DNA of 33,328 nucleotides from a virus. A program made the position numbers and the translations under genes. Of the stretch, positions 2,450 to 32,613 are shown piece by piece. A model generated the notes under the pieces. The model did no database searches and was not told the DNA's origin. It worked only from the letters and a program-made list of their open reading frames with translations. Within the stretch, counting starts at the first letter, position 1; each line of letters opens with the position of its first letter. The stretch covers positions 1 to 33,328 of the IMG/VR virus record IMGVR_UViG_3300008459_000194. One strand, 5' to 3'.

Positions 2450-3319
2450 ATGGCTAACATTAAACCAACTCCGAAAACACAACGAGAAATAAGTATTTCT
2501 CAACAGGAACCATATAATCAAGAGGGACCAGGGTTTCAACCTGTAGGAAATCCAAATGATAGTGATTTCGATAGATTGAATAGAGGAAATCAATTGAGTT
2601 TTAAAGGAGATACTGTAAAGCCATTCTCAGTAGGGATTCAAGACATTGATGAAACTATATATTATTATTTTACTGAAGTTATAAAACCTTTTGTTATTCA
2701 AAATGGTCAAAGAATCCCAGTTCCTATAGTATATAGCAACCCAGAAAAATGGAAACAAGTCCAAAAAGATGGATACTATAGAGATAAAAACGGAAAAATA
2801 ATGTCTCCATTATTGGTTTTTAAAAGAGATGATTTAACTAAAAATAGAAGTATAGGAAATAAAGTTGATGCTAATCAACCCCATTTATATAGTTCATTTA
2901 CAAAAACATATTCTAAAAGAAATTTCTATGATTCATTTTCTGTTTTAAATAATACTAGACCAGAAAAAGAACAATACGCTATAGTAATTCCTGATTATGT
3001 CACTATAAAATACAGTTGCGTTATATATACTTACTATGTAGAGCAAATGAATAAAATTGTTGAGGCAATTAACTATGCCTCAGATTCATACTGGGGAGAT
3101 CCAGCTAGATTTAAATTCAATGCTCGAATAGATTCATTCAATACTATAATAGAAGTAGCGGACGGACAAGATAGATCAATAAAAAGTACTTTTGATATAA
3201 AATTAAACGGATATATTATACCAGATGTTTTACAAAAAGATGTATTAGCTATTAAGAAAATTCCAGATGTAATTCCTAAAATTACAATTCAAGAGAATTC
3301 TTCAAATACTATAAAATAA
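2450..3319 (+). CDS. Tail completion / sheath stabiliser, T4 gp15-like
   Basis: This 289-aa protein has the size of T4 gp15 (272 aa), the terminator that caps tail tube and sheath and joins the tail to the head. A flexible polar N-terminus (about 50 residues) leads into TIYYYFTEVIKPFV, then IPVPIVYSNPEKWKQ, the block 'SPLLVFKRDDL', and IPDYVTIKYSCVIYTYYVEQMNKIVEAI; the last part includes 'YWGDPARFKFNARIDSF'. These are typical for the family that also includes gp3-like terminators. It starts one base past the preceding stop. A 74-base gap follows, containing a small palindrome and the promoter motif for the sheath gene. Confidence 0.65.
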   Translation: MANIKPTPKTQREISISQQEPYNQEGPGFQPVGNPNDSDFDRLNRGNQLSFKGDTVKPFSVGIQDIDETIYYYFTEVIKPFVIQNGQRIPVPIVYSNPEKWKQVQKDGYYRDKNGKIMSPLLVFKRDDLTKNRSIGNKVDANQPHLYSSFTKTYSKRNFYDSFSVLNNTRPEKEQYAIVIPDYVTIKYSCVIYTYYVEQMNKIVEAINYASDSYWGDPARFKFNARIDSFNTIIEVADGQDRSIKSTFDIKLNGYIIPDVLQKDVLAIKKIPDVIPKITIQENSSNTIK

Positions 3320-3324
3320 AATAC

Positions 3325-3338
3325 AATTTTATAAAATT
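3325..3338 (+). terminator. Perfect AT palindrome, possible weak terminator
   Basis: AATTTTATAAAATT is a perfect 14-base palindrome just after the gp15-like stop and is followed by more T residues. Its all-AT stem is weak and such strings arise easily in this base composition, so a terminator role is uncertain. Confidence 0.2.
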
Positions 3339-3350
3339 TTTAATAGACTC

Positions 3351-3362
3351 TGCCATATTTAT
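3351..3362 (+). promoter_or_regulatory. Candidate late promoter motif ahead of sheath gene
   Basis: Exact second copy of TGCCATATTTAT (first at 777-788), 32 bases before the sheath start. Sharing of 12 bases between two non-coding leaders of highly expressed structural genes is the evidence; function is inferred. Confidence 0.4.
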
Positions 3363-3393
3363 CAATAAACAATAAATTAAATTATACAAACAA

Positions 3394-5451
3394 ATGGCAG
3401 AAACATTATTATCTCCTGGAGTACTAACTAGAGAAAACGACCAATCACAAATTAGTCAAAATCCAGTTCAGGTGGGAGCAGCAATTATAGGACCAACTGT
3501 AAAAGGTCCGGTAGAACTACCAACAGTAGTTACTTCATACAGCGATTATGTAGATAAATTTGGTGATGTATTGGTTAGTGGTAGTGATACTTACTCATAT
3601 TTTACATCTATAGCAGCTTATAATTACTTCAACGAAGGGGGAGATACATTATTGGTAGCTAGAGTAGTATCTGGATCATATACATCTGCAACTAGTACTA
3701 CTATTAACTCAAATTTAGTAGCTACAACAGCTTCTTCAACTTTGGGTGTTACTTCATTTCATACTGAAGCAGCAACAAATGGTTCAAGTTCATTCTCTCT
3801 TAATGGAATTACTTTTACATTAACAGGAAGTGCAGGTGCTCCTAACACGGCGACTCAAATTTTCGTAGCGTCTGGTTCTTCAGCAGCTAACTCAGCAGCA
3901 GCGTTAGTATTAGCTATTAATAGTAGTTCATCTGTAGCTCCATATAGTACTTCTTTGAGTAACATCAGCTCTAGTAATTCTACAGCGACATTAAATTTAT
4001 ACTCAACTAACGGAATAACTGGTAATTCATATTATACAGTTTCTGGAAGTACAACAGTATATTTTACTGGTGGTACTAATCAAAATGCTTTTATTTTAAA
4101 AACTATCTCTGAAGGAGCTATAATGAATAGTTCAAGTTCATTAGATGCAGCAGGTGCTTTAGCTAATGGTTCAAAAGATAATATTCGTTTTGAGATAGTA
4201 AGTCCTAACTTATCTAATGGAACATTTACATTATTAGTTAGACAAGGTAATGATATTACTAATAGTAAAGCAGTACTAGAATCATTCACTAACTTATCTT
4301 TAGATCCAAAATCTCCAAACTTCATATCTAAAAGGATTGGTGATTATGTTTACAACTATAACTCAGCAACTAATCAAATAGAAATAACTGGTAATTACGC
4401 TAATAACTCAAGATATATCTATGTTGACTCAGTAGCTTTATTAACCCCAGATTATTTAGATAATAATGGAGTAGCTAAACCTCAATACACAGGATCTATT
4501 CCTTTAGCAGGTAGTGGTTCATTTAGTGGAGCTACAGGTACTGTAATGGGTGGAGCTAATTTCTATAACAATGTAGATAGTAGTAATACTCAAGGTGTAG
4601 TAGCAGCTGATTATGATAACATGGTTGATTTATTATCTAATAAAGATGATTACCAATTCAATGTTTTAGTAACACCAGGTTTAATTAACTCAATTCATAC
4701 TAATTCTGTTTCAAATATTATTAACAATACTCAAGATAGAGGAGATAATATTTACGTAGTTGATCCTGTAGCTTATGGTTCATCTTATGGAGACGCAGTT
4801 ACACAAGCTTCTTCAAGAGATAATTCATATGCTGCTATGTACTGGCCATGGTGTCAAATATTAGACCCAGGAACTGGTAAAAATGTTTGGGTTCCTGCTT
4901 CAACAATGATTATAGGAGTTTATGCTTATAATGATAGAGTAGGTGAGCCTTGGTTCGCACCAGCAGGTATTAATCGTGGTGGATTAGGAACAGTAATACG
5001 TGTTGAACAAAAATTAAATCAAGCAACTAGAGATGCTTTATACATTGGTAAAGTAAATCCAATCGCTTCATTCCCAGGTCAAGGAATTGTAGTTTATGGT
5101 CAGAAAACATTACAAACTAAACCATCTGCTCTTGATCGTGTAAATGTAAGAAGATTATTAATTGAACTTAAATCATATATCTCTCAAGTAGCTAATACTT
5201 TAGTATTTGAACAAAATACAATTGCTACTAGAAATATTTTCTTAAGCCAAGTAAATCCTTACTTATCATCAGTACAACAAAGACAAGGATTATATGCGTT
5301 TAAAGTAGTAATGGATGAAACTAATAATACTGCGGATGTAATTGATAGAAATCAATTAATTGGAGCAATTTATATTCAACCTACAAAAACAGCTGAATTC
5401 ATCTACTTAGACTTCAATATCACTCCAACAGGAGTAGCATTCCCAGCATAA
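3394..5451 (+). CDS. Contractile tail sheath protein, gp18-like
   Basis: A 685-aa protein with the clear ends of the T4 gp18 family. The N-terminus (LLSPGVLTREND...GAAIIGPTVKGPVELPTVVTSY..Y...FG) is the handshake-arm region. The C-terminal third (RDNSYAAMYWPW, WFAPAGINRGGL, RDALYIGKVNPIASFPGQGIVVYGQKTL, then a helix, FVVMDETNN-like and IQPTKTAEFIYLDF) is the conserved contractile core. Residues about 100-230 form an S/T/N/G-rich beta-type insertion, presumably exposed on the sheath surface. Length is close to T4 gp18 (659 aa). A strong hairpin terminator follows. The protein polymerises round the tube and contracts at infection. Confidence 0.93.
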   Translation: MAETLLSPGVLTRENDQSQISQNPVQVGAAIIGPTVKGPVELPTVVTSYSDYVDKFGDVLVSGSDTYSYFTSIAAYNYFNEGGDTLLVARVVSGSYTSATSTTINSNLVATTASSTLGVTSFHTEAATNGSSSFSLNGITFTLTGSAGAPNTATQIFVASGSSAANSAAALVLAINSSSSVAPYSTSLSNISSSNSTATLNLYSTNGITGNSYYTVSGSTTVYFTGGTNQNAFILKTISEGAIMNSSSSLDAAGALANGSKDNIRFEIVSPNLSNGTFTLLVRQGNDITNSKAVLESFTNLSLDPKSPNFISKRIGDYVYNYNSATNQIEITGNYANNSRYIYVDSVALLTPDYLDNNGVAKPQYTGSIPLAGSGSFSGATGTVMGGANFYNNVDSSNTQGVVAADYDNMVDLLSNKDDYQFNVLVTPGLINSIHTNSVSNIINNTQDRGDNIYVVDPVAYGSSYGDAVTQASSRDNSYAAMYWPWCQILDPGTGKNVWVPASTMIIGVYAYNDRVGEPWFAPAGINRGGLGTVIRVEQKLNQATRDALYIGKVNPIASFPGQGIVVYGQKTLQTKPSALDRVNVRRLLIELKSYISQVANTLVFEQNTIATRNIFLSQVNPYLSSVQQRQGLYAFKVVMDETNNTADVIDRNQLIGAIYIQPTKTAEFIYLDFNITPTGVAFPA

Positions 5452-5492: not shown

Positions 5493-5531
5493 AAATTTTA
5501 AATATGTATAATAAAATAAAATAAAATAAAA

Positions 5532-6020
5532 ATGGCAGTATTATCACCAAACGAAATATTTTTCACAGCATTTGAACCTAAAGTAGCCAATAGGTTTGTA
5601 ATGTATGTAGATGGAATCCCCTCATATATGATTAAAGGAATTGCTCCTGTAACTGTAGATATGGGAGAAATTGTATTAAACCACATTAATGTTTATCGTA
5701 AAATTAAAGGTAAAGCAAAATGGGGTGACATGCAAATGACTTTATTTGATCCAATTACCCCATCTGGTGCTCAAGCTGTAATGGAGTGGGTACGTTTACA
5801 TCATGAATCAGTTACTGGCCGTGATGGTTATTCTGATTTCTATAAAAAAGATGTAACTATCAATGTGTTGGGACCTGTAGGTGATATTGTTAGTGAATGG
5901 ATCATTAAAGGAGCATTCATTAAATCAGCTAATTTTGGTGAATATAATTATGATACTGAAGCATCTGCTGTTAACATCCAGTTAACTTTAGGTATGGATT
6001 ATTGTATTTTAAATTACTAA
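5532..6020 (+). CDS. Tail tube protein, gp19-like
   Basis: 162 aa, the size of T4 gp19 (163 aa). The N-terminal 'PKVANRFVMYVDGIPSYMIKGI' (about residues 15-37), a central 'GKAKWGDMQMTLFDPITPSGAQAVMEWVRLHHES' region and 'GDIVSEWIIKGAFIKSANFGE' are the recognised tube-protein pattern, forming a hexameric beta-barrel ring through which DNA passes. It lies right after the sheath gene, as in T4, and is bracketed by two hairpin terminators, so it probably has its own short abundant transcript. The leader repeats ATAAAAT four times directly before the ATG and has no Shine-Dalgarno site. Confidence 0.92.
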   Translation: MAVLSPNEIFFTAFEPKVANRFVMYVDGIPSYMIKGIAPVTVDMGEIVLNHINVYRKIKGKAKWGDMQMTLFDPITPSGAQAVMEWVRLHHESVTGRDGYSDFYKKDVTINVLGPVGDIVSEWIIKGAFIKSANFGEYNYDTEASAVNIQLTLGMDYCILNY

Positions 6021-6044
6021 AAAATATAAAAAAAGAAGTAAATT

Positions 6045-6072
6045 AAGCTTGCCTTATTGGTAAGCTTTTTTT
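6045..6072 (+). terminator. Rho-independent terminator after tube gene
   Basis: AAGCTTGCC (6045-6053) pairs with GGTAAGCTT (6059-6067; one G-T pair), loop TTATT, then a T run to 6072. Placed 25 bases after the tube stop. Confidence 0.82.
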
Positions 6073-6094
6073 ACATTTATGAAAAATAAAATTT

Positions 6095-6346
6095 ATGCAA
6101 ACAAAAAAGCTCACCTTTGAAGAAGTAAAAGCATTATCTGACTTTCAAATTAAAAATCAAGAATTGATAATTAAATTTGGCCAGTTAGAATATGAATTTC
6201 AAAATCTGTCTTCTCAAAAACAACTATTAATCGATGAATTTAACAGTATAAAAGAGTCAGAAATACTATTAAGTAGATCTCTTAGAGAAAAATACGGAGA
6301 AGGAAACATAAATTTAGAAACAGGAGAAATTATTTCTTTTATCTAA
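6095..6346 (+). CDS. Small coiled-coil protein of unknown role
   Basis: An 83-aa, highly charged protein that I do not recognise. Nearly the whole length is predicted alpha-helix with heptad-like spacing of I/L/F (FQIKNQELIIKFGQLEYEF, LLIDEFNSIKESEILL), ending in KYGEGNINLETGEIISFI. It sits between the tube gene and the gp26-like gene, so a role in tail assembly or as a minor tail component is a guess from position. There is no signal peptide, membrane segment or cysteine. The start has a standard A-rich leader just after the terminator. Confidence 0.6.
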   Translation: MQTKKLTFEEVKALSDFQIKNQELIIKFGQLEYEFQNLSSQKQLLIDEFNSIKESEILLSRSLREKYGEGNINLETGEIISFI

Positions 6347-6375
6347 AAATTAAATAAAGTTATTAAATAAAAATT

Positions 6376-7128
6376 ATGGAACAAATCGAAAATCAAGAAT
6401 CTTCAAAATTCAATTTCCCAACAGAAACAATTGAATTACCATCAAAGGGATTATTATATCCTAAAGATAATCCTTTAGCGTCAGGAACAGTCGAATTAAG
6501 ATACATGACAGCAGCGCATGAAGACATTTTAACAAATCAGTCTTACATCAGTAAAGGAGTAGTATTAGATAAGTTAATGCAGGCATTAATAGTGTCTCCA
6601 ATTAATTACGATGATATAATCACCGGAGATAAAAATGCTATAATGATTGCTTCACGCATTTTAGGTTATGGTAAAGATTATAGTTTTACTTATGGTGGAG
6701 AAGAACAAACAGTAGATTTAACTGCATTAAATAATAAACCATTTGATGAAAAATTAATTACTCCTGGAACAAATGAGTTTGCTTATACTTTACCTAATAC
6801 CGGAGCTATTATTACTTTTAAAATTTTAAATCATGGGGATGAGAAAAAAATAGAAAAAGAATTAGAGGGTCTTAAAAAAATTAAAAAAGATTCTTCTCCT
6901 GAATTATCAACTAGATTAAAATATATTATAACATCGGTTAATGGAGATTCTAATACCAAAACAATTAGAGATTTTGTTGATAATCAGCTCTTAGCAATGG
7001 ACTCCAGGGCATTGAGAGAATATATCAAACAAGTTCAACCAGATGTTGACCTAACTTTTTTTCCCGACGGGAGTGAAAAAGCCGTTAATATTCCCATTGG
7101 ACTTAACTTTTTTTGGCCTGACCTCTGA
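6376..7128 (+). CDS. Baseplate hub assembly / tail chaperone, T4 gp26-like
   Basis: A 250-aa protein with the pattern of the T4 gp26 family: 'IELPSKGLLYPKDNPLASGTVELRYMTAAHEDILTN' near residues 19-55, then KLMQALIVSPINYDDIITGDKNAIMIASRILGYG, and the C-terminal 'NIPIGLNFFWPDL' that usually ends these proteins. Position between tube and tape measure is where contractile and flexible tailed phages keep tail assembly chaperones. The last 74 bases are also open in the +1 frame, which continues into a 98-residue extension (next entry). T4 gp26 is classed as a baseplate hub assembly protein; the chaperone reading is my inference from location and the overlap. Confidence 0.65.
   Translation: MEQIENQESSKFNFPTETIELPSKGLLYPKDNPLASGTVELRYMTAAHEDILTNQSYISKGVVLDKLMQALIVSPINYDDIITGDKNAIMIASRILGYGKDYSFTYGGEEQTVDLTALNNKPFDEKLITPGTNEFAYTLPNTGAIITFKILNHGDEKKIEKELEGLKKIKKDSSPELSTRLKYIITSVNGDSNTKTIRDFVDNQLLAMDSRALREYIKQVQPDVDLTFFPDGSEKAVNIPIGLNFFWPDL
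7051..7117 (+). other. Candidate programmed frameshift region: two AACTTTTTTT runs
   Basis: Two near-identical strings, CTAACTTTTTTT (7051-7062) and TTAACTTTTTTT (7103-7114), lie in the only stretch where both overlapping frames are open. In the gp26 frame the second reads AAC TTT TTT TGG; a +1 or -2 slip on the T run gives TTT GGC and enters the downstream frame before the gp26 stop at 7126. A small CCC-GAC-GGG hairpin (7063-7071) follows the first run. Confidence 0.45.
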
Positions 7129-7420
7129 TTTAGCTCCTCAAGCTAGATTAGCTTTATTTAATCAAATACATCAAATAGTATTTTATGGTAAGGGAGGATA
7201 TGATTGGAATACTATATATAACATGCCTATTTGGTTAAGAAAGTATACATTTTCTCAAATAAAAGAATATTATGATAAAGAAAATGAAGCCAATAGTAAA
7301 GCTTTAAATAACAACAAAAATGTTGCTATTGATAGTGATGGTATGGTTAGAGATAAAACATTATTCCAAAATCAACCAAAATCTTCTACTCCTATTAAAA
7401 AACCTGTTAGCTACAAGTAA
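7073..7420 (+). CDS. Overlapping downstream chaperone-like ORF, probably reached by frameshift
   Basis: An open frame that overlaps the end of the gp26-like gene by up to 74 bases (open from 7055 after a TAA at 7052) and runs to 7420. The only early start is a GTG at 7073 buried in the upstream gene; no ATG occurs for about 50 codons and there is no A-rich leader, unlike all neighbours. The body (SDLAPQARLALFNQIHQIVFYGKGGYDWNTIYNMPIWLRKYTFSQIKEYYDKE) is helical and charged with a disordered tail, recalling T4 gp51-like or GT-type chaperone extensions. I infer expression as a gp26-frameshift fusion; independent GTG initiation cannot be excluded. The stop lies in the loop of a terminator hairpin. 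Confidence 0.55.
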   Translation: MKKPLIFPLDLTFFGLTSDLAPQARLALFNQIHQIVFYGKGGYDWNTIYNMPIWLRKYTFSQIKEYYDKENEANSKALNNNKNVAIDSDGMVRDKTLFQNQPKSSTPIKKPVSYK

Positions 7421-7433
7421 TTCTTGTAGCTTT
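7409..7433 (+). terminator. Hairpin terminator overlapping stop codon
   Basis: AGCTACAAG (7409-7417) pairs perfectly with CTTGTAGCT (7423-7431); the loop TAATT holds the TAA stop of the preceding frame. The T tract after the stem is short, so termination may be partial. Confidence 0.65.
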
Positions 7434-7435
7434 CA

Positions 7436-7443
7436 ATATTTAT
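7436..7443 (+). promoter_or_regulatory. Late-type motif ATATTTAT before tape measure gene
   Basis: ATATTTAT sits directly after the terminator stem and 18 bases before the tape measure ATG, matching the motif ahead of other structural genes. Function inferred. Confidence 0.35.
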
Positions 7444-7460
7444 TACAAAAATACATTTAA

Positions 7461-9932
7461 ATGGCTTTAGATCCTAAACAAGCTGCTGAATTAGAAGCAA
7501 AACTAAGAGAAATAGAAAGACTTTCTAATAAGTTTGGAGAAAATATTAACGTTATTAATCTTCAACCTTTAGAAGATAATGTTGGAGCAATAAATACTCT
7601 TTTTGAATCATTAATTAAAAAAGAACAAGAATTAGGAGCTGAAACAGATCATTTAATTTCTAGTTTTCAAGAATTATCTAATAAAATTAAATCTAGTACC
7701 GCGGGCATTCAGGAATCTAATAAAGCATTAAAAAATCTATCCAGTATAGCTGAACAGCTAAATAGTCATCAAAAAGGCTACAATGAATTATCAGCTAAAG
7801 AATTAGCTACCCTTCAGCAAAAAGCAAAAATGGAAGGAGATCGTTTAAGTAGATCTAGAGATACATTGCAAACTGAAAAAGATTTATTAGCTACTGAAAT
7901 ACAACAACTTCAACGACAAGGAGCATCAAATAGTGAAATAGATAAAGCCCAAAAGAAATTAGATAAAGTAGAAGCCCAATATAGTAAAATAAATAATCTA
8001 TTAGCAGTTAATGATACTACTTTAGCTGATGTTAATACCCAACTACAAAAAGAACTAGATCTACAAAAAGACGTAGAAAAGCAATTGGGTGTTACAGGTG
8101 TAGCTCTTAAAGGAATCAGTAAAATTCCTTTTTTAGGAGACGCAGTTAACACTAAAAAAGCGTTAGAAGATGCTACTGCCGCTATTAAAAGTGGAGGAGG
8201 GGCAATGGGGGGTATGAAAGCGGCTGTTAAGTCTGTAGGATCAGACATAGCATCATCTTTAAAAGATCCTTTAGTTATAACTTCATTCTTTATAACTCAA
8301 ATGGTAGATGCCTTTAAAAATCTAGATAAAGGTATAGGTGAATTTGCTAAAGGAATGAATCTTACTTATGAGGATGCCGCTAAATTAGATCAAAAATTTA
8401 ATAGTATAGCCAATTCATCTGGTGATATAGCAGTTACTACTAAAGGAATTAGAGATACTATGCTTGCTATGGGGCAAGCAATGGGTAGTAATGCTGTATT
8501 GAATGAAAAGGACGCGGTTACTTTTACTAAATTACGAGAACAAGCGGGATTAACTAACGATGAGTTAGCCCAAATGGAAAAATTATCTTTAGCTACTGGA
8601 AAAAATCTAGAAGATAATGTTGCTAATACTATATATGCTGCTAAAACAACAGCATTAAACAATGGAGTTTTATTAAATGAAAAAATGATAATGCAAGAAG
8701 TAGCCAAAGCATCCGCCGCTACTAAATTATCATTAGCAAATAATCCAGAATCATTAGCCAAAGCTGCTGCTCAAGCTAAATCTTTAGGTATGAATTTAGA
8801 ACAAGTAAATTCAATAGCTGATAAAATGCTTGAGATTGAGTCATCTATAACAAACGAATTAGAAGCTGAATTATTAATTGGAAAAAATTTGAATTTAGAG
8901 CAAGCTCGTTTATATGCTTTAAATAATGATATGGCTGGGTTATCAAAAGAAATAGCTAAAAACTTTGGTAGCGCAGCTGATTTTTCCCAAATGAATAGAA
9001 TACAGCAAGAAGCTGCTGCTAAAGCTGTAGGTATGTCTCGTGAAGAATTAGCTAAAACCTTAACTGATCAAGAAGCATTAAAGGGACTATCGGGAGCTCA
9101 AGCTAAAAATGCTCAGGCTGCTTTAGATGCTGCTCGTGCTAGGGGAATGAGTGAAGAAGAAATTAAAAAACAAGGAGTAGATGGTTTAATGCAACAACAA
9201 TCTATCCAAGAAAAATTAAATAATTCTGTTGAAAAATTAAAAGAAATATTTGTTAGTTTAGTTGAACCGTTAATGCCTGTATTAGATGCTTTAAGTTCTA
9301 TTCTAAGTGTAGTAGGTTTAATACTTAAACCTATTGGATTATTATTTGATCTTTTTGGAAAAATAGGTTCTGCTATATCAAATTTGGTGGGTCCTTTAGG
9401 AATGGTAGGAAAAATCATAAAAGGATTAGCTGGAGCCACAATTGTATATGCTGCTTATAAGGCGTTTGCAGCTGCAGCAGCAATTCCGATAGCTGGGGCA
9501 GTATTAGGTCCATTGGCAGCCGCCGCTACTTTAGCTGCTGGTTTTAGTGCTTTAAACAAAATAAAAACTGCCGATGACATGGTCTCCCCAGGTTACGGTA
9601 AACGTACTTTAATGGGTCCTGAAGGCGCAATTGCTTTAAATGATAAAGATACAGTAATAGCAGGTACAAATTTATTTGGAAATGATGTAGTATCTGAACC
9701 AGGAAAAAGTACTACTTTTAAAGGAGAAAACGAAATAAGATCATCTTCTGGAACTGATATGTCTGGTGTTATAGCTAGATTAGATGCCTTAACAGCTGCT
9801 GTTCAATCATTTGGAACTAAACCAGTACAAGTAGCAGTAACAATGGATGGTAAAAGAGTAGCAGAAGGATTAGGAAACCATGCTACACAATTAGGTACTT
9901 CAGCCAATGTTGGAACTTCTAAAGTTCAATAA
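7461..9932 (+). CDS. Tail tape measure protein
   Basis: An 823-aa protein, the second longest of the window, in the canonical place after the chaperone-like pair. Residues 1-200 are coiled coil (long E/K/Q/L heptads), about 215-300 contain a glycine-rich and hydrophobic stretch, 300-590 are alanine-rich helices (for example KAAAQAKSLGMNLEQVNSIADKML), and about 595-700 carry several strongly hydrophobic helices (LVEPLMPVLDALSSIL, IYAAYKAFAAAAAIPIAGAVLGPLAAAATLAAG) of the kind that enter the host membrane. The C-terminal 120 residues are polar and glycine-rich. The protein would set tail length, be ejected ahead of the DNA, and help form the channel. At roughly 1.5 angstrom per residue a tail near 120 nm would be expected. 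Confidence 0.85.
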   Translation: MALDPKQAAELEAKLREIERLSNKFGENINVINLQPLEDNVGAINTLFESLIKKEQELGAETDHLISSFQELSNKIKSSTAGIQESNKALKNLSSIAEQLNSHQKGYNELSAKELATLQQKAKMEGDRLSRSRDTLQTEKDLLATEIQQLQRQGASNSEIDKAQKKLDKVEAQYSKINNLLAVNDTTLADVNTQLQKELDLQKDVEKQLGVTGVALKGISKIPFLGDAVNTKKALEDATAAIKSGGGAMGGMKAAVKSVGSDIASSLKDPLVITSFFITQMVDAFKNLDKGIGEFAKGMNLTYEDAAKLDQKFNSIANSSGDIAVTTKGIRDTMLAMGQAMGSNAVLNEKDAVTFTKLREQAGLTNDELAQMEKLSLATGKNLEDNVANTIYAAKTTALNNGVLLNEKMIMQEVAKASAATKLSLANNPESLAKAAAQAKSLGMNLEQVNSIADKMLEIESSITNELEAELLIGKNLNLEQARLYALNNDMAGLSKEIAKNFGSAADFSQMNRIQQEAAAKAVGMSREELAKTLTDQEALKGLSGAQAKNAQAALDAARARGMSEEEIKKQGVDGLMQQQSIQEKLNNSVEKLKEIFVSLVEPLMPVLDALSSILSVVGLILKPIGLLFDLFGKIGSAISNLVGPLGMVGKIIKGLAGATIVYAAYKAFAAAAAIPIAGAVLGPLAAAATLAAGFSALNKIKTADDMVSPGYGKRTLMGPEGAIALNDKDTVIAGTNLFGNDVVSEPGKSTTFKGENEIRSSSGTDMSGVIARLDALTAAVQSFGTKPVQVAVTMDGKRVAEGLGNHATQLGTSANVGTSKVQ

Positions 9933-22785: not shown

Positions 22786-23739
22786 ATGCCGTTAATTGAA
22801 CCTAGATTATTTTATAAACCATTTGAATACCAACAAGCATTTGATTTTTATAAAGATCAACATAGAGCACATTGGTTAGCAGATGAAGTACCATTAGCAT
22901 CAGATTTAAATGATTGGAAACTTAAATTAAGTGAACCAGAAAAAAATCTAATTGGTAATATTTTAAAATCGTTTGCCCAAACAGAAGTTCATGTGAATGA
23001 TTATTGGTCAACTAAAGTATCAACATGGTTTCCAAAACCTGAAGTTCAAGCAATGGCTCGTGTATTTGCAGATTTTGAATCAATACATGCTGAAGCATAC
23101 GCTAGATTAAATGAAGAATTGGGATTAGATGATTTTCAAGCATTTCTAGAAGATGAAACATCAAGAAATAAAATAGAACGATTAGTAGAAATACCTGGTG
23201 ATACATTAGAGGAAAAAGCAATTTCATTAGCTATATTCTCAGCATTTACTGAAGGTGTTAACTTATTTTCTTCATTTGCTATTTTAATGTCTTTTCAATT
23301 AAGAAACTTAATGAAAGGTACAGGTCAGATAGTTGAATGGTCAGTAAGAGATGAATCATTACATTCAAAAGCAGGATGTTGGTTATTTAGAAAATTATTA
23401 GAAGAACAACCAGAATTAAATACTCCTGAATTAAGAAATAAAATTATTGAAGCATGTGAATTATCTGTAAAATTAGAATATGATTTTATTGAAAAAGCAT
23501 TTGAAATGGGAGATATAGATGGTTTAACAAAAGAACAGTTAAAAGCATTTATTAAAGCAAGAGCAAATGAAAAATTAATTGAATTAGGATATCAAACAAT
23601 TTATAATGATATTGATCCTAATTTATTAAAACAAATGGAATGGTTTGGTCATTTAACAAGTGGTAAAACACATCAAGATTTCTTCGCGGGAAGAGTAACA
23701 AATTACGCCAAATCAGTAGCTGATTGGAGTGATCTATAA
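22786..23739 (+). CDS. nrdB: Ribonucleotide reductase class I, small subunit
   Basis: A 317-aa radical-generating subunit. Iron ligands are placed as in E. coli NrdB: E67, E98 and H101 (ESIH), E156 (TEGVN), E190 and H193 (DESLH); the radical tyrosine is Y105 in HAEAY. The C-terminal tail (RVTNYAKSVADWSDL) is the part that docks on the large subunit. With nrdA, about 1.2 kb further on, it would make deoxynucleotides from host ribonucleotides. Its 3' end is duplicated 647 bases downstream (see repeats), indicating that the following gene was inserted at this point. Confidence 0.94.
   Translation: MPLIEPRLFYKPFEYQQAFDFYKDQHRAHWLADEVPLASDLNDWKLKLSEPEKNLIGNILKSFAQTEVHVNDYWSTKVSTWFPKPEVQAMARVFADFESIHAEAYARLNEELGLDDFQAFLEDETSRNKIERLVEIPGDTLEEKAISLAIFSAFTEGVNLFSSFAILMSFQLRNLMKGTGQIVEWSVRDESLHSKAGCWLFRKLLEEQPELNTPELRNKIIEACELSVKLEYDFIEKAFEMGDIDGLTKEQLKAFIKARANEKLIELGYQTIYNDIDPNLLKQMEWFGHLTSGKTHQDFFAGRVTNYAKSVADWSDL
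23691..23727 (+). repeat. Direct repeat, copy 1 (within nrdB 3' end)
   Basis: 37 bases (AAGAGTAACAAATTACGCCA...GATTGG) identical to 24338-24374. After the repeat this copy reads AGTGATCTATAA, encoding S-D-L-stop in nrdB. Confidence 0.97.
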
Positions 23740-23741
23740 AA

Positions 23742-23749
23742 TATTTACT
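23742..23749 (+). promoter_or_regulatory. Late-like motif TATTTACT before the inserted gene
   Basis: TATTTACT within AATATTTACTATAAAATG resembles the late core TATTTATA but ends only five bases before the ATG, too near for a standard -10 box of this gene. Weak. Confidence 0.15.
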
Positions 23750-23754
23750 ATAAA

Positions 23755-24339
23755 ATGAAAAAAGAACAACTTAAACAAATCATTAAAGAAGAAATACAAA
23801 ATGTATTGAATGAAAATACTAACATAGACCAAATTTTAGATAAAATTTCATCTAAAGGAATAAATAGTTTATCCCCACATGATAAACAATATTTAGATGC
23901 TTATTCTCAAGAAAAAGAATTACCTCCTATGGATGAATGGTTTTTAGATAATGGGACCTTAAGAGATGCTTTTTTTATTAGTGGAGACAAAGATCTTGAA
24001 ATAGATAAAGATATATTTATAAATTATGTTCTTACCCATAAAAATAAACTTAAAAAAATGTGGAATGAAACTGGAGGAAATTGGGATCAAGATCAAATTA
24101 CTGATGATGAAATCAGACAAGCAGCAGATAAATTTTACGAATTATATCCAGAACGTTATGATCATTTCTTTTATGACAGAGAAAAAAAATATAGAAATAG
24201 TAATGCGAGGCACTTACGATCTCTTTATTATTCATCACCTAGAGGAATTTTTGCTCAAAACGTAATGCTACTTTTTGATGAAGATATAGAAAATTTATGG
24301 TTAGAAATATTTCTAAATGATCTTGAAAAGGTAATTTAA
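23755..24339 (+). CDS. Inserted gene of unknown function with capsid-targeting-like leader
   Basis: A 194-aa protein placed between two copies of the nrdB 3' end. Its N-terminus, KEQLKQIIKEEIQNVLNE, is an amphipathic charged helix ending in LNE, the L-x-E form cut by T4-type prohead proteases; the following residue is N, so the match is less good than in the next gene. Residues about 24-50 (NIDQILDKISSKGINSLSPHDKQYLD) match a short helical motif common at C-termini of Bacteroidetes rhomboid-family proteins. The rest is acidic, aromatic and helical with no enzyme motif. Its stop codon overlaps repeat copy 2. It may be a cargo protein packaged in the head; this is inference. Confidence 0.6.
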   Translation: MKKEQLKQIIKEEIQNVLNENTNIDQILDKISSKGINSLSPHDKQYLDAYSQEKELPPMDEWFLDNGTLRDAFFISGDKDLEIDKDIFINYVLTHKNKLKKMWNETGGNWDQDQITDDEIRQAADKFYELYPERYDHFFYDREKKYRNSNARHLRSLYYSSPRGIFAQNVMLLFDEDIENLWLEIFLNDLEKVI

Positions 24340-24374
24340 GAGTAACAAATTACGCCAAATCAGTAGCTGATTGG
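24338..24374 (+). repeat. Direct repeat, copy 2 (displaced nrdB tail)
   Basis: Second 37-base copy. It continues TCTGACCTTTAA, again S-D-L-stop but with different codons from copy 1, and the reading phase is that of the nrdB tail. It is a non-translated remnant between two genes. Confidence 0.97.
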
Positions 24375-24395
24375 TCTGACCTTTAAAATAAAAAT

Positions 24396-24935
24396 ATGAT
24401 AAAATTAATTGACTTATTAAATGAAGGAAAACAAGTAGGTATACTATATCATTTTACATCATTAAGTGGAGGAGAAAGCATTATAAAATCAAATACTTTA
24501 AAACCCATAAATTATGATTTTATATCTCTAACTAGAGATAAAAATCTATACAAAACCTCTGACCATATAGAAGGAGGATTAGTTAGATTAACTTTAGATG
24601 GAGATAAACTATCAGATAATTTTAAAATTAAACCATATGATGAAGATCAAAGAAAAATACATGGTAGTTTTGAATCTGAAGAAAGAATTAATAAACCTAT
24701 AAAAAATATTAAGGATTATATAATTAAAATTGATATAATTTTAGATTTTTATAAATATGTTAATAGTAATTATCCTGAATTATTATTTTATGAACCCCAA
24801 GAAATAAAAAACGCTATTTCTATTTTTGAGTCATCTGGAATACCATTTAGTATAATATTAAAGGATAATAAAGTAGATTTAAAAACATGGTTAAAAATTT
24901 CTAAAAATTTTATACAAGCTAATAAAGATTACTAA
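24396..24935 (+). CDS. ART-like protein 1 with capsid-targeting-like leader
   Basis: A 179-aa protein. Residues 1-10 (MIKLIDLLNE) followed by G11 look like a T4 capsid-targeting sequence with an L-x-E|G prohead-protease site. The body carries YHFT at 18-21 with a helix ending ILKSN-like (here IIKSNTLK), ISLTRD at about 43-48, a VRLTLDGDKLS strand pair and ESEERI near 94-99. The order H-F-T / S-x-T-R / E-E is the pattern of small ADP-ribosyltransferase folds, but it is too divergent to be certain without structure. It shares leader and core with the gene at 26738, and has an extra C-terminal 55 residues. I infer an injected effector like T4 Alt. Confidence 0.5.
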   Translation: MIKLIDLLNEGKQVGILYHFTSLSGGESIIKSNTLKPINYDFISLTRDKNLYKTSDHIEGGLVRLTLDGDKLSDNFKIKPYDEDQRKIHGSFESEERINKPIKNIKDYIIKIDIILDFYKYVNSNYPELLFYEPQEIKNAISIFESSGIPFSIILKDNKVDLKTWLKISKNFIQANKDY

Positions 24936-26737: not shown

Positions 26738-27163
26738 ATGATAAAATTAATTGATTTATTAAGTGAAGGAAAACAAGTAGGTCCTTTATATCATTTTACA
26801 AGGACCGGAGAATTAATTAGCATTCTCAAAAGTAACATTTTAAAAGCAAGTGATCAATGGGCTACTAATGATGATCTTAGACCCTTTAATTCTTTTACTC
26901 GAAATAAAAATGGGTGGGATGTAGGAGGATTCCCAACAGATGTACGAATAACAGTTGATGGTGATAAATTATCTTATAAATATAAAATTCAACCTTTTGA
27001 TATGGGTTATGGAGTAGATGAGATGGAAGAGAGAATTTATAAAGATATCCCTAATATAAAAGATTATATTTTAGATATAACTATTAATACTAAAACTAAA
27101 GGAAATTACGATATACATAAAGATATATTAAAAGATCTTTATCCTAAATTTAAAATTATATAA
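26738..27163 (+). CDS. ART-like protein 2 with capsid-targeting-like leader
   Basis: A 141-aa paralog of the gene at 24396. The first 45 bases differ at two positions only, giving MIKLIDLLSE|GKQVG against MIKLIDLLNE|GKQVG, while the rest has diverged. Conserved blocks are LYHFT (17-21), ILKSNILK, NSFTRNK at about 51-57, VRITVDGDKLS, MEERI near 93-97, and NIKDYI. This is the same H-F-T / S-x-T-R / E-E-R order. It is shorter than paralog 1 at the C-terminus. Lying after a terminator and next to a late-type motif, it may be expressed late, which would fit packaging in the head. ADP-ribosyltransferase function is inference. Confidence 0.5.
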   Translation: MIKLIDLLSEGKQVGPLYHFTRTGELISILKSNILKASDQWATNDDLRPFNSFTRNKNGWDVGGFPTDVRITVDGDKLSYKYKIQPFDMGYGVDEMEERIYKDIPNIKDYILDITINTKTKGNYDIHKDILKDLYPKFKII

Positions 27164-30203: not shown

Positions 30204-31109
30204 ATGAAAAAATACGCAGTATTAAGTTTATCAGGAGGAATGGATAGTAGTACTTTACTATTACATTTATTAGCAAATGATTATGAAGTAACAGCTTTAT
30301 CATTTGATTATGGACAAAAACATAAAGTAGAATTACAGTGTGCTTCTAATTTAGTAGAATATCTAAATAGTAATCATGAGAAAACAGTTGAAAAATTTGG
30401 TTTGTTTTCTATGTTTCCTAAAGTTACACATCAAATTATTAAACTAGATGGTTTATCTCAATTATTAAATTCTACATTAGTAGAAGGAGGAGCAGAAGTA
30501 CCTGAAGGACATTACGCTCAAGAAAACATGAAAGATACAGTAGTACCTAATCGTAATAAAATATTTAGTTCTATTATTCAAGCAGTTGCTTTATCAATTG
30601 CTGATAAAAATGGAACAGATTGTGTTATGGCTTTAGGAATCCATTCAGGTGATCATGCTATTTATCCTGATTGTACTGAAAATTTTAGACAAGCAGATTT
30701 ACATGCTTTTAAAGTAGGTAATTGGAACTCAGAAAAAGTAGATTTCTATGCTCCATATATGGAAACAGATAAAACAGGTATCTTAAAAGATGGTATTACA
30801 TGTTGTGAAAAATTAGGTCTAGATTTTAATGAAGTATATAAACGCACTAATACGTCTTATAAACCACTCAAAATTGTAAAATTTGAAAAAAGATTTGAAG
30901 GAACAGAAGATGAAATAAGAGTATTATCTGAAGTTTGGTATAGTGATTATAAATCAGCTAGTTCAGTAGAACGTATAGAAGCATTTTTAAATATAGGTCG
31001 TAGAGATCCTGTTAGTTATGCTGAAGTAATTCCAAATGGAGAAGTTATCCCACGCACTTGGGATGAAGTATTAGTGCATGTTAAACCAGTATTAAAAACC
31101 AATAAATAA
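30204..31109 (+). CDS. queC: 7-cyano-7-deazaguanine synthase QueC (zinc site lost)
   Basis: A 301-aa PP-loop enzyme that turns CDG into preQ0 using ATP and ammonia. The PP-loop SGGMDS lies at 10-15, followed by LSFDYGQKHKVEL (QueC-typical), VPNRNKIFSS, ALGIHSGDHAIYPDC and the C-terminal TNTSYKP and SSVERIEAF...GRRDP. Standard QueC has CGxCxxCxxR at the last position; here it reads K250-S-A-S-S-V-E-R, so the cysteines that bind structural zinc are replaced. The chain is also longer than E. coli QueC (231 aa). It begins 11 bases after the small SSB-tip gene. Confidence 0.85.
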   Translation: MKKYAVLSLSGGMDSSTLLLHLLANDYEVTALSFDYGQKHKVELQCASNLVEYLNSNHEKTVEKFGLFSMFPKVTHQIIKLDGLSQLLNSTLVEGGAEVPEGHYAQENMKDTVVPNRNKIFSSIIQAVALSIADKNGTDCVMALGIHSGDHAIYPDCTENFRQADLHAFKVGNWNSEKVDFYAPYMETDKTGILKDGITCCEKLGLDFNEVYKRTNTSYKPLKIVKFEKRFEGTEDEIRVLSEVWYSDYKSASSVERIEAFLNIGRRDPVSYAEVIPNGEVIPRTWDEVLVHVKPVLKTNK

Positions 31110-31116
31110 ATAAAAT

Positions 31117-31368
31117 ATGAAACAAGTAATCTATTTCTCAACAGCATGGTGTAGTGCCTGCAAAACAACATCTCCAATAGTAGATCAATTAAGCAAATCA
31201 GATATAGCACAAGTAGCAAAAGTAGATGCTGATTATGATGTATCTTTAGTAGAACAATATAAAATTAGAAGTATTCCAACTATTGTAGTTTTAGAAAATG
31301 GAAGTGAAGTTAAAAGACATGTTGGAGCAATAAGTTATGATCAATTAACCAAATTAATTAATGGATAA
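31117..31368 (+). CDS. Thioredoxin-like protein
   Basis: An 83-aa minimal thioredoxin fold. The N-terminus is VIYFSTAWCSACKTTSPIVDQL with active site W11-C12-S-A-C15 (CSAC rather than CGPC); later KVDADYDVSLVEQYKIRSIPTIVVL contains the cis-proline S-I-P before the central strand, and the end has GSEVKRHVG. It is shorter than bacterial thioredoxin (about 108 aa), like T4 glutaredoxin/thioredoxin. It probably reduces the C-terminal cysteines of NrdA and may help keep QueE or QueC active. Seven bases separate it from queC and two from queD. Confidence 0.85.
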   Translation: MKQVIYFSTAWCSACKTTSPIVDQLSKSDIAQVAKVDADYDVSLVEQYKIRSIPTIVVLENGSEVKRHVGAISYDQLTKLING

Positions 31369-31370
31369 AA

Positions 31371-31847
31371 ATGGGAAGGTATATCTCAACTAAATTATTT
31401 GACAATTATTCAGTAGCTATACGCCAATGGAAAGCACAGCATTCACACTGTCAGTTATTACATGGTTATGCTTTAAAATTTAAAGTATGGTTTGCATCTA
31501 ATGAACCGTTAGAAGAAAATCAATTAGATGATATGAATTGGATTGTAGACTATGGTGGATTTAAAGACGCACCTAAAGGTAATGGATTAAAATCATGGAT
31601 GGACCATATGTGGGATCATACTTTATTAATCCAAAAAGATGATCCATTTGTAGATATATTTGAACAGATGGGTCAAATGGGTTTAGCTAAAGTACATTTA
31701 CTAGATAAAATGGGAGCTGAAAGTAATGCTAAGTTAGTATTTGATAAATTTAATGAAGTTTTATCTAAAACAGATGCGGGTAGATGTAAGTGTATTAAAG
31801 TAGAATGTTTTGAAAACGATAAAAATAGTAGCATTTATGAAGGATAA
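31371..31847 (+). CDS. queD: 6-carboxy-tetrahydropterin synthase QueD-like (variant zinc site)
   Basis: A 158-aa member of the QueD/PTPS family, which converts dihydroneopterin triphosphate to 6-carboxy-tetrahydropterin. The catalytic cysteine is C27 (SHCQLLHGY) and D-H occurs in MWDHTLLI; E in VKVECFE-like closing strand. In E. coli QueD zinc is held by H16, H31 and H33; here H31 is kept, Y33 replaces the second His of HGH, and residue 16 is A. A nearby H24/H26 could substitute. RQWKAQHSHC...HGY looks like a separate phage branch. The stop overlaps the queE start by 11 bases, so the two are coupled. Confidence 0.75.
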   Translation: MGRYISTKLFDNYSVAIRQWKAQHSHCQLLHGYALKFKVWFASNEPLEENQLDDMNWIVDYGGFKDAPKGNGLKSWMDHMWDHTLLIQKDDPFVDIFEQMGQMGLAKVHLLDKMGAESNAKLVFDKFNEVLSKTDAGRCKCIKVECFENDKNSSIYEG

Positions 31848-32613
31848 TTTAGATTATAATAAAGTACAACCTATAATAGAAGCATATGTTTGTGTGCAGA
31901 CTGAAGGTTCAAGAGCAGGATATCCTCATTTTTTAGTTCGTACTACTGGATGTACTCATAGATGCTATTTTGGTGAAGGAGGGTGGTGTGATTCTTGGTA
32001 TACAAGTATCCACCCTGAAAAGGGTACTTGGACATTAAATGCCATTAAAGAATTATTTGAAGCAAATCCTCAAATCAATCACTTAATGATATCAGGTGGA
32101 TCTCCAACTATGCATCCTGAGTTAGTCGATGAATTAATCAATATGGCTAAACAAATGAGAGGGATGTATGTTACAATAGAGACTGAAGGTAGTCATTATA
32201 TTGAAACTAATTATAAAATTGATTTAATATCTTTATCTCCTAAATTCTCAAATTCAGTACCTAAACTAGGAACTAAAACACCTGCGGATAAAGATGTAGA
32301 TCAGAAAATGATTAATCAACATAATAAATTTAGAATGAAACATGATGAAATAAAAAAACTTTTAAATTATCATTTAGATTACCATTTTAAACCTGTTGTA
32401 GATAGAAATGAACCTGAAATATGGAACGAGATTGAAGAATTTATTAAAATACATGATATTCCAAAGAATAAAGTATGGGTTATGCCTGCTGGAGATACTT
32501 TAGATAAATTACAACCTAACTATCCTTATGTAATGGAAGAATGTATTAAACGAGGATATAATTTTACAGGTAGAGCTCATATTGTAGCATATAATGATAA
32601 ACGTGGAGTATAA
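31837..32613 (+). CDS. queE: 7-carboxy-7-deazaguanine synthase QueE (radical SAM)
   Basis: A 258-aa radical SAM enzyme making CDG from 6-carboxy-tetrahydropterin. I take the ATG at 31837 over a TTG at 31810 that lies deeper in queD. Motifs: Q-T-E-G-S (QueE substrate region), TTGCTHRC with C39-x3-C43, then F-G-E-G-G-W and C51, giving CX3CX7C for the iron-sulfur cluster instead of CX3CX2C; WCDSWYTSIHPEKG follows; LMISGGSPTMHPEL carries GGxP; VTIETEGSHY and ISLSPKFSNS complete the barrel. Length is near E. coli QueE (223 aa) plus a helical insertion. Located between queD and the phosphoribosyltransferase. Confidence 0.82.
   Translation: MKDNLDYNKVQPIIEAYVCVQTEGSRAGYPHFLVRTTGCTHRCYFGEGGWCDSWYTSIHPEKGTWTLNAIKELFEANPQINHLMISGGSPTMHPELVDELINMAKQMRGMYVTIETEGSHYIETNYKIDLISLSPKFSNSVPKLGTKTPADKDVDQKMINQHNKFRMKHDEIKKLLNYHLDYHFKPVVDRNEPEIWNEIEEFIKIHDIPKNKVWVMPAGDTLDKLQPNYPYVMEECIKRGYNFTGRAHIVAYNDKRGV

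Follow-up and report, generated by a model that had tools for sequence, protein, structure and literature searches.

A repeated nrdB gene end in a phage genome suggests cargo swapping by breaking and re-copying of gene ends

Why should a phage carry the end of its ribonucleotide reductase gene nrdB twice, with another gene lying between the two copies? This question is raised by a 33.3-kb IMG/VR record (GC 29%), which was analysed over its whole length of 33,328 nt and is hereafter called the window. Its gene order of ssb, recA-like, exonuclease, DnaB, nrdB, and nrdA is that of Flavobacterium phage immuto, the nrdB of which is also the best relative of the window nrdB in the annotated phage collection, with 58% identity. 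The sequence AAGAGTAACAAATTACGCCAAATCAGTAGCTGATTGG is found at 23691-23727 and again at 24338-24374 with 37/37 bases equal, and the following 12 nt read AGTGATCTATAA in copy 1 and TCTGACCTTTAA in copy 2, each encoding S-D-L-stop. Thus, the 37-base repeat and the recoding of its S-D-L-stop ending, as described in the earlier note, were confirmed, and over the 49 nt through the stop the two tails match at 45 positions and specify the same residues from 16/16 codons. An exact pair of 37-mers is expected by chance at ~1.6e-11 in the window, and the second-longest exact repeats are 19 bp or shorter, making the 37-nt repeat the sole longer one. As listed in Table 1, the host gene end is present once fused to nrdB and once displaced downstream, and the 194-aa ORF sits between the two copies, with its stop codon TAA completed by the first two bases of copy 2. 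Downstream, copy 2 is followed by a 179-aa cargo gene and then by nrdA.

Table 1. Features around the repeated nrdB end, in positions of the window
Feature	Coordinates	Strand	Evidence or remark
nrdB, ribonucleotide reductase small subunit, 317 aa; 3' end duplicated	22786..23739	+	PF00268, E 1.6e-65
Tail copy 1, last 49 nt of functional nrdB	23691..23739	+	23728-23739 (AGTGATCTATAA) recoded
Inserted cargo gene, 194 aa	23755..24339	+	PF20216, E 8.7e-12
Leader of 194-aa protein, capsid-targeting-like, final residues L-N-E	23755..23814	+	
Tail copy 2, presumed leftover nrdB end with TCTGACCTTTAA ending	24338..24386	+	
Second cargo gene, 179 aa, leader MIKLIDLLNE and predicted ADP-ribosyltransferase-fold protein	24396..24935	+	AlphaFold model, Foldseek
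nrdA, ribonucleotide reductase large subunit, 574 aa	24946..26670	+	PF02867, E 1.4e-96

Judged from their sequences, both 12-nt endings look like natural alleles. L071, L036, and L045 natively end as copy 2 does, and copy 1 is nearest to L006, L004, and L005. Among 5390 native nrdB pairs differing at three or more of the last 12 positions, just 5 are identical over the 37 nt upstream, and this rarity argues for a recent common ancestry of the two window copies up to the TGG codon. The near-identical phages L007 and L139, which have the 37 nt in common, differ by a whole serine codon (TCA vs AGC) at the third codon from the nrdB stop, beside an invariant TGG. This pair was considered as a case of cargo-linked recoding and rejected, since both phages carry the same cargo; a serine codon switch alone is therefore not evidence of import.

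The site at which the 194-aa gene lies is variable among relatives. IMG/VR searches yielded 291 nrdB-bearing loci, which were reduced to 179 distinct junctions once identical ones were merged. When a junction was scored as empty if nrdB was followed by nrdA with a gap of no more than 100 bp, 114 of the 179 were empty and 65 contained an insert. In the first locus set, inserts were found at the nrdB-nrdA junction in 45/137 loci versus 0/92, 6/98, 11/108, and 27/125 at four neighbouring core-gene junctions, and the nrdB-nrdA junction is thus a hotspot, the most often occupied of the five compared. The earlier note had called for relatives with an empty site or a single tail and for other cargo at the same point. 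Both kinds exist: besides the 114 empty junctions, L030 carries an orthologue of the 179-aa gene (91% identical) directly behind nrdB, with a single tail and without the 194-aa gene, and the cargo in the 65 occupied junctions is varied. The two-tail form is therefore not an old stable arrangement lacking an empty-site version.

HNH-type genes occupy 15 of the 65 filled junctions and fall into two clusters of 11 and 4 members. Pfam HNH matches were above or near the cut-off for L032 and L079 and weak for L027, and Pfam gave no HNH confirmation for L014 and L036, though both cluster with L032. The non-HNH inserts include a cluster of 20 to which MIKLIDLLNE-type tagged proteins belong, 10 encoding an 83-87-aa MLKPQSIR-type protein, 10 of another family, and singletons, and many of the inserted proteins bear an N-terminal capsid-targeting-like tag. 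The locus thus has the pattern of a free-standing homing endonuclease locus, with a nuclease in some relatives and an empty site in others. In L065 (1176-2126) the normal end of nrdB is lost, and its final 16 residues look like the C-terminal end of ART-like cargo proteins (L093/L094/L118), as if a deletion had fused nrdB with a cargo gene; the small subunit may be impaired in this phage.

The origin of the two tails can be followed in a relative. A search for nrdB tails among relatives retrieved one further two-tail genome, L124, the nrdB of which tracks that of L053 up to ~80 nt before the stop and then diverges abruptly. Its second tail is identical to the native tail of L114 at 37/37 nt, and the nrdA behind this tail is, over its first 780 nt, 91-97% identical to that of L053/L114, and at its start 94-97% L053/L114-like. 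Nine codons of an MLKPQSIR-type gene are present at the join, where the old tail truncates the gene. The mosaic nrdB, the L114-like second tail, and the cut gene together indicate that a cargo gene and a fragment of another gene were imported along with ~80 nt of a foreign nrdB end, and the old nrdB end of L124 stayed behind as a scar before nrdA. The suggestion in the earlier note that the inserted DNA brought its own version of the gene tail and left the old one behind is thus visible directly in L124. That the downstream copy belongs to the resident lineage and the upstream copy is foreign is clear in this genome, whereas the available relatives of the window are too distant for the same assignment. 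In L124, an intein-like insert that contains additional ORFs also appears to interrupt nrdA (5522-8446), and an HNH-like gene that has no Pfam match lies between DnaB and nrdB (2961-3731).

The same scar is present at other genes. Each of 3018 gene ends was checked for a repeat of its final 36 nt in the following 2.5 kb, with a cut-off of at least 27 matches plus an aligned stop and with the opposite strand and reversed sequences as nulls. The scan gave 16 matches with an aligned stop versus 0 in both nulls, and these were sorted into seven scars and nine matches taken as tandem paralogues. The matches set aside as paralogues include those of L326, L352, L390, L335, L394, L371, and L312 and a second match of L360; the call was based on inspection of neighbouring full-length genes for L352, L390, L335, and L360, and on position and gene content for the others. 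Together with L124 and L313, which are below the automatic cut-offs, there are nine scars in total, located at nrdB (window and L124), nrdA (L017), thyA (L313, L345, L360, and immuto), and a gene of 151-153 aa that precedes ssb (L275 and immuto). Two of the nine are thus carried by immuto, a cultured and sequenced phage, the thyA scar of which is the weakest of all (24/25 nt). In the scar copies the protein sequence mostly agrees and the DNA differs by synonymous changes, as expected of alleles that have been functional in different lineages.

The second copies start 25-87 nt from the stop across the nine scars, the cargo gene is often truncated, and no core sequence is common to the nine joins. 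The cargo ORF of L345 is fused in frame with the old tail and an ORF of L017 enters the old tail out of frame, which argues that the right-hand joins are non-homologous. The L017 scar has a one-tail counterpart in L018 with the same leader. In L360, the gene between the two thyA tails begins in a GIY-YIG-like manner and contains NUMOD3 motifs (E 1.3e-9), and this is the only endonuclease within a bracketed insert; no recognised nuclease lies between the tails in 7/9 scars, and the insert of the window consists of a leader and DUF6576 without a nuclease domain. Leader-tagged genes are bracketed in the window, L017, L275, and L313, and no clear tag was seen on the bracketed genes of L124, L345, and the thyA scar of immuto.

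The occurrence of the same scar at four genes, in one case enclosing a homing endonuclease, suggests that cargo genes are exchanged among these phages when gene ends are broken and copied anew. For the window, the repeat is probably the scar of cargo import between related co-infecting phages by break, copy, and join. In such an event, the nrdB 3' end of the resident phage would be broken during co-infection, within the last 25-90 nt of the gene. The left end would pair with the donor nrdB, and copying would take in the donor nrdB end, the spacer, and the 194-aa gene. The right end, having no partner in the cargo, would be joined where copying stopped, inside its own leftover nrdB tail. The product would be an nrdB with imported last codons, followed by the cargo, the old tail as copy 2, and the resident downstream genes. 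NrdB would stay whole because the import supplies a complete tail, and the codons would differ because the two tails are alleles of different lineages. We infer that homing endonucleases resident at such gene ends probably cause the breaks; with nuclease genes found at this site in relatives, they are the likely trigger. The earlier note was right that no endonuclease gene lies within the cassette, and the window cassette would accordingly be a passenger without its endonuclease, relatives having such genes at this site. This lack of an endonuclease in the cassette counts against the import model, as does the failure to find a donor of the 194-aa gene. Moreover, since all differences between the two window tails fall within the final 12 nt, the 37 nt before them being equal, the simple order of events would require that the donor was locally identical, that both copies were resident with a template switch just after TGG, or that conversion took place later.

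The main rival, which we consider rather unlikely, is unequal recombination without an endonuclease, in which two phages with different nrdB-linked cargo would recombine out of register via short matches during recombination-driven replication and thereby stack their cargoes around the tail. Two cargoes are indeed stacked around the second tail in the window and L017, the joins are ragged, and a RecA-like recombinase is encoded in these phages. However, cargo is present on just one side of the second tail in L124, L275, L345, and L360, and unequal recombination alone leaves the clustering of nucleases at the same gene ends unexplained. It is very unlikely that the second tail is retained for a function of its own, as a regulatory element or as homology for precise loss of the cassette. 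Direct repeats would permit such a loss while leaving nrdB intact, and the residues of copy 2 are unchanged; but second tails are scarce, occurring at only 2 of the 65 occupied nrdB junctions, and the copies of L313 and L360 show the divergence that a lack of selection would produce. An assembly artefact joining two strains at a common 37-mer is even less credible. Although the window is a metagenomic contig and k-mers of 37 nt are of a size used in assembly, the single-copy 194-aa gene joins a tail at both sides, its junction with copy 2 offers no overlap for an assembler to use, and the same architecture is found in other samples and in the cultured phage immuto. Least probable of all is site-specific integration, in which the cassette would be an integrative element using the nrdB 3' end as its attachment site and rebuilding it as at tRNA ends. 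In its favour, a direct repeat of the gene end brackets the insert; against it, no integrase was found among the bracketed genes examined, the repeat edges spread over 25-87 nt with cargo genes truncated at the join, and the tails of L124 are from different lineages. Origin by target-site duplication or an integrase was rejected on the same grounds of ragged edges and absence of a recombinase. Thus, of the two possibilities joined in the earlier note, homing gains support from the HNH genes at the junction and the bracketed endonuclease of L360, and integration as at tRNA ends is not supported, given the ragged edges without a core.

If the repeat is a scar of import, the nature of what was imported becomes of interest. 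The 194-aa protein has a 20-residue leader (MKKEQLKQIIKEEIQNVLNE) and a DUF6576 motif at residues 19-52; its C-terminal part is without known relatives, and a single-sequence model had a mean pLDDT of 46. The leader is 62-75% conserved in unrelated proteins, and siblings in L037 and L139, encoded behind nrdA, combine leader and DUF6576 with different C-terminal parts. The annotated phage collection contained no match for the 194-aa or 179-aa protein. When the AlphaFold model of the 179-aa protein was searched with Foldseek, the top 14 matches were all Tpt1/KptA or DarT (best E 5.7e-5), and Y18, H19, T46, R47, E95, and E96 are invariant in ten members of its family. The modelled structure thus identifies the 179-aa product as an ADP-ribosyltransferase (ART) fold with conserved catalytic-like residues. 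A paralogue of this gene with the same leader (MIKLIDLLSEGKQVGPLYHFT) lies behind nrdA in the window (26738-27163), and the DNA of the two ART leaders has exact stretches of 18 and 19 bp in common.

In L128 (8171-8842), the same ART body (GKQVGTLYHFT) is found behind the other leader type (MKKSELKQLIKEETHKILNE) with the junction exactly at LNE, which indicates that the leaders are swappable modules. The leader pattern is present in 19/37 hotspot cargoes versus 74/1151 other proteins. An S77 prohead protease is encoded in 8/8 relatives tested, the window record itself being without the head-gene region. In L085 (802-2865), which belongs to another phage group, a run of small genes, each with a KEQLKxxIKEE-type leader, adjoins a gp21-type prohead protease and also lies beside apparent capsid genes, and this neighbourhood supports a head-related role of the leader. 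By analogy with Alt and the internal proteins of T4 (PMC9026906), packaging of the cargo into the head, followed by injection, is probable.

Two further features of the window were observed. The motif ATATTTATAAYA occurs three times (781, 18196, and 26720; 0.29 expected), preceding ssb, a head-tail adaptor-like gene, and the ART paralogue that follows nrdA. Since L275 and L360 have similar motifs upstream of cargo as well, a phage promoter may be represented. The region 30204-32613 contains putative QueC, QueD, and QueE homologues, judged by position and comparison with immuto, which additionally encodes DpdA, hinting at 7-deazaguanine DNA modification.

It is tempting, albeit speculative, to extend these observations to a general mode of cargo loading in Bacteroidota T4-type phages, where homing endonucleases would cut essential genes such as nrdB, nrdA, and thyA near their 3' ends, the breaks would be repaired with donor DNA that supplies a recoded end plus cargo, and cargo with swappable leaders would be packaged and injected as counter-defence or host-takeover protein. 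If true, this general route would amount to a natural form of home-and-rescue put to use for effectors. The join lies at the left edge of each leftover tail, so that the sequence itself reveals the import step, and the scars record the places and the manner of cargo entry into phage genomes. They also tie homing endonucleases at essential genes to the turnover of genes probably acting at injection. Furthermore, a downstream repeat of a gene tail that differs from the original by synonymous changes provides a signature for recently imported phage genes, and the presence of two scars in a cultured phage makes the model open to testing.

Several known systems share parts of this architecture. In T4, nrdB and td are targets of homing endonucleases, and mobE, located between nrdA and nrdB, encodes an HNH homing endonuclease that targets nrdB (PMC2988022); the scar-marked genes described here likewise include nrdB, nrdA, and thymidylate synthase. 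Like the free-standing homing endonucleases of T4-type phages, HNH genes occur here at the nrdB-nrdA junction, and breaks in the T4 nrdB are accompanied by co-conversion of flanks. Unlike the mobE locus, the gene order is nrdB-nrdA and most of the cargo is of kinds other than nucleases, and the scanned T4 region yielded no leftover gene tail. Nuclease genes have also been reported at the boundaries of genetic exchange between phages, with homing endonucleases near essential genes including ribonucleotide reductase (PMC10448857). In both cases neighbouring DNA is exchanged near such endonucleases, but those islands are >10 kb and nuclease-flanked, in contrast to the single genes and duplicated gene end seen here. 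With respect to the cargo, T4 Alt and the internal proteins carry capsid targeting sequences (PMC9026906), and the proteins described here similarly have a short N-terminal leader with an L-x-E type end before a variable cargo including ADP-ribosyltransferase, although the leader sequences differ and the cargo lies behind replication genes. The gene structure itself is known from the mobile ORFs (mORFs) in atp6, atp9, cox2, and nad3 of fungal mitochondria (Allomyces and Glomus), in which the insert encodes an endonuclease (PMC3630166). Our limited literature search, which does not prove absence, returned no description of this architecture in phages. In the phages as in the fungal mORFs, the host gene receives a coding end from the insert, its native end comes to lie farther downstream, and most of the differences are synonymous. 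Unlike in fungi, the host is a phage, and the insert of the window and most of the others are cargo without a recognised nuclease. Thus, what is new here is probably a mORF-like architecture in phages, loaded with cargo that is probably packaged in the virion.
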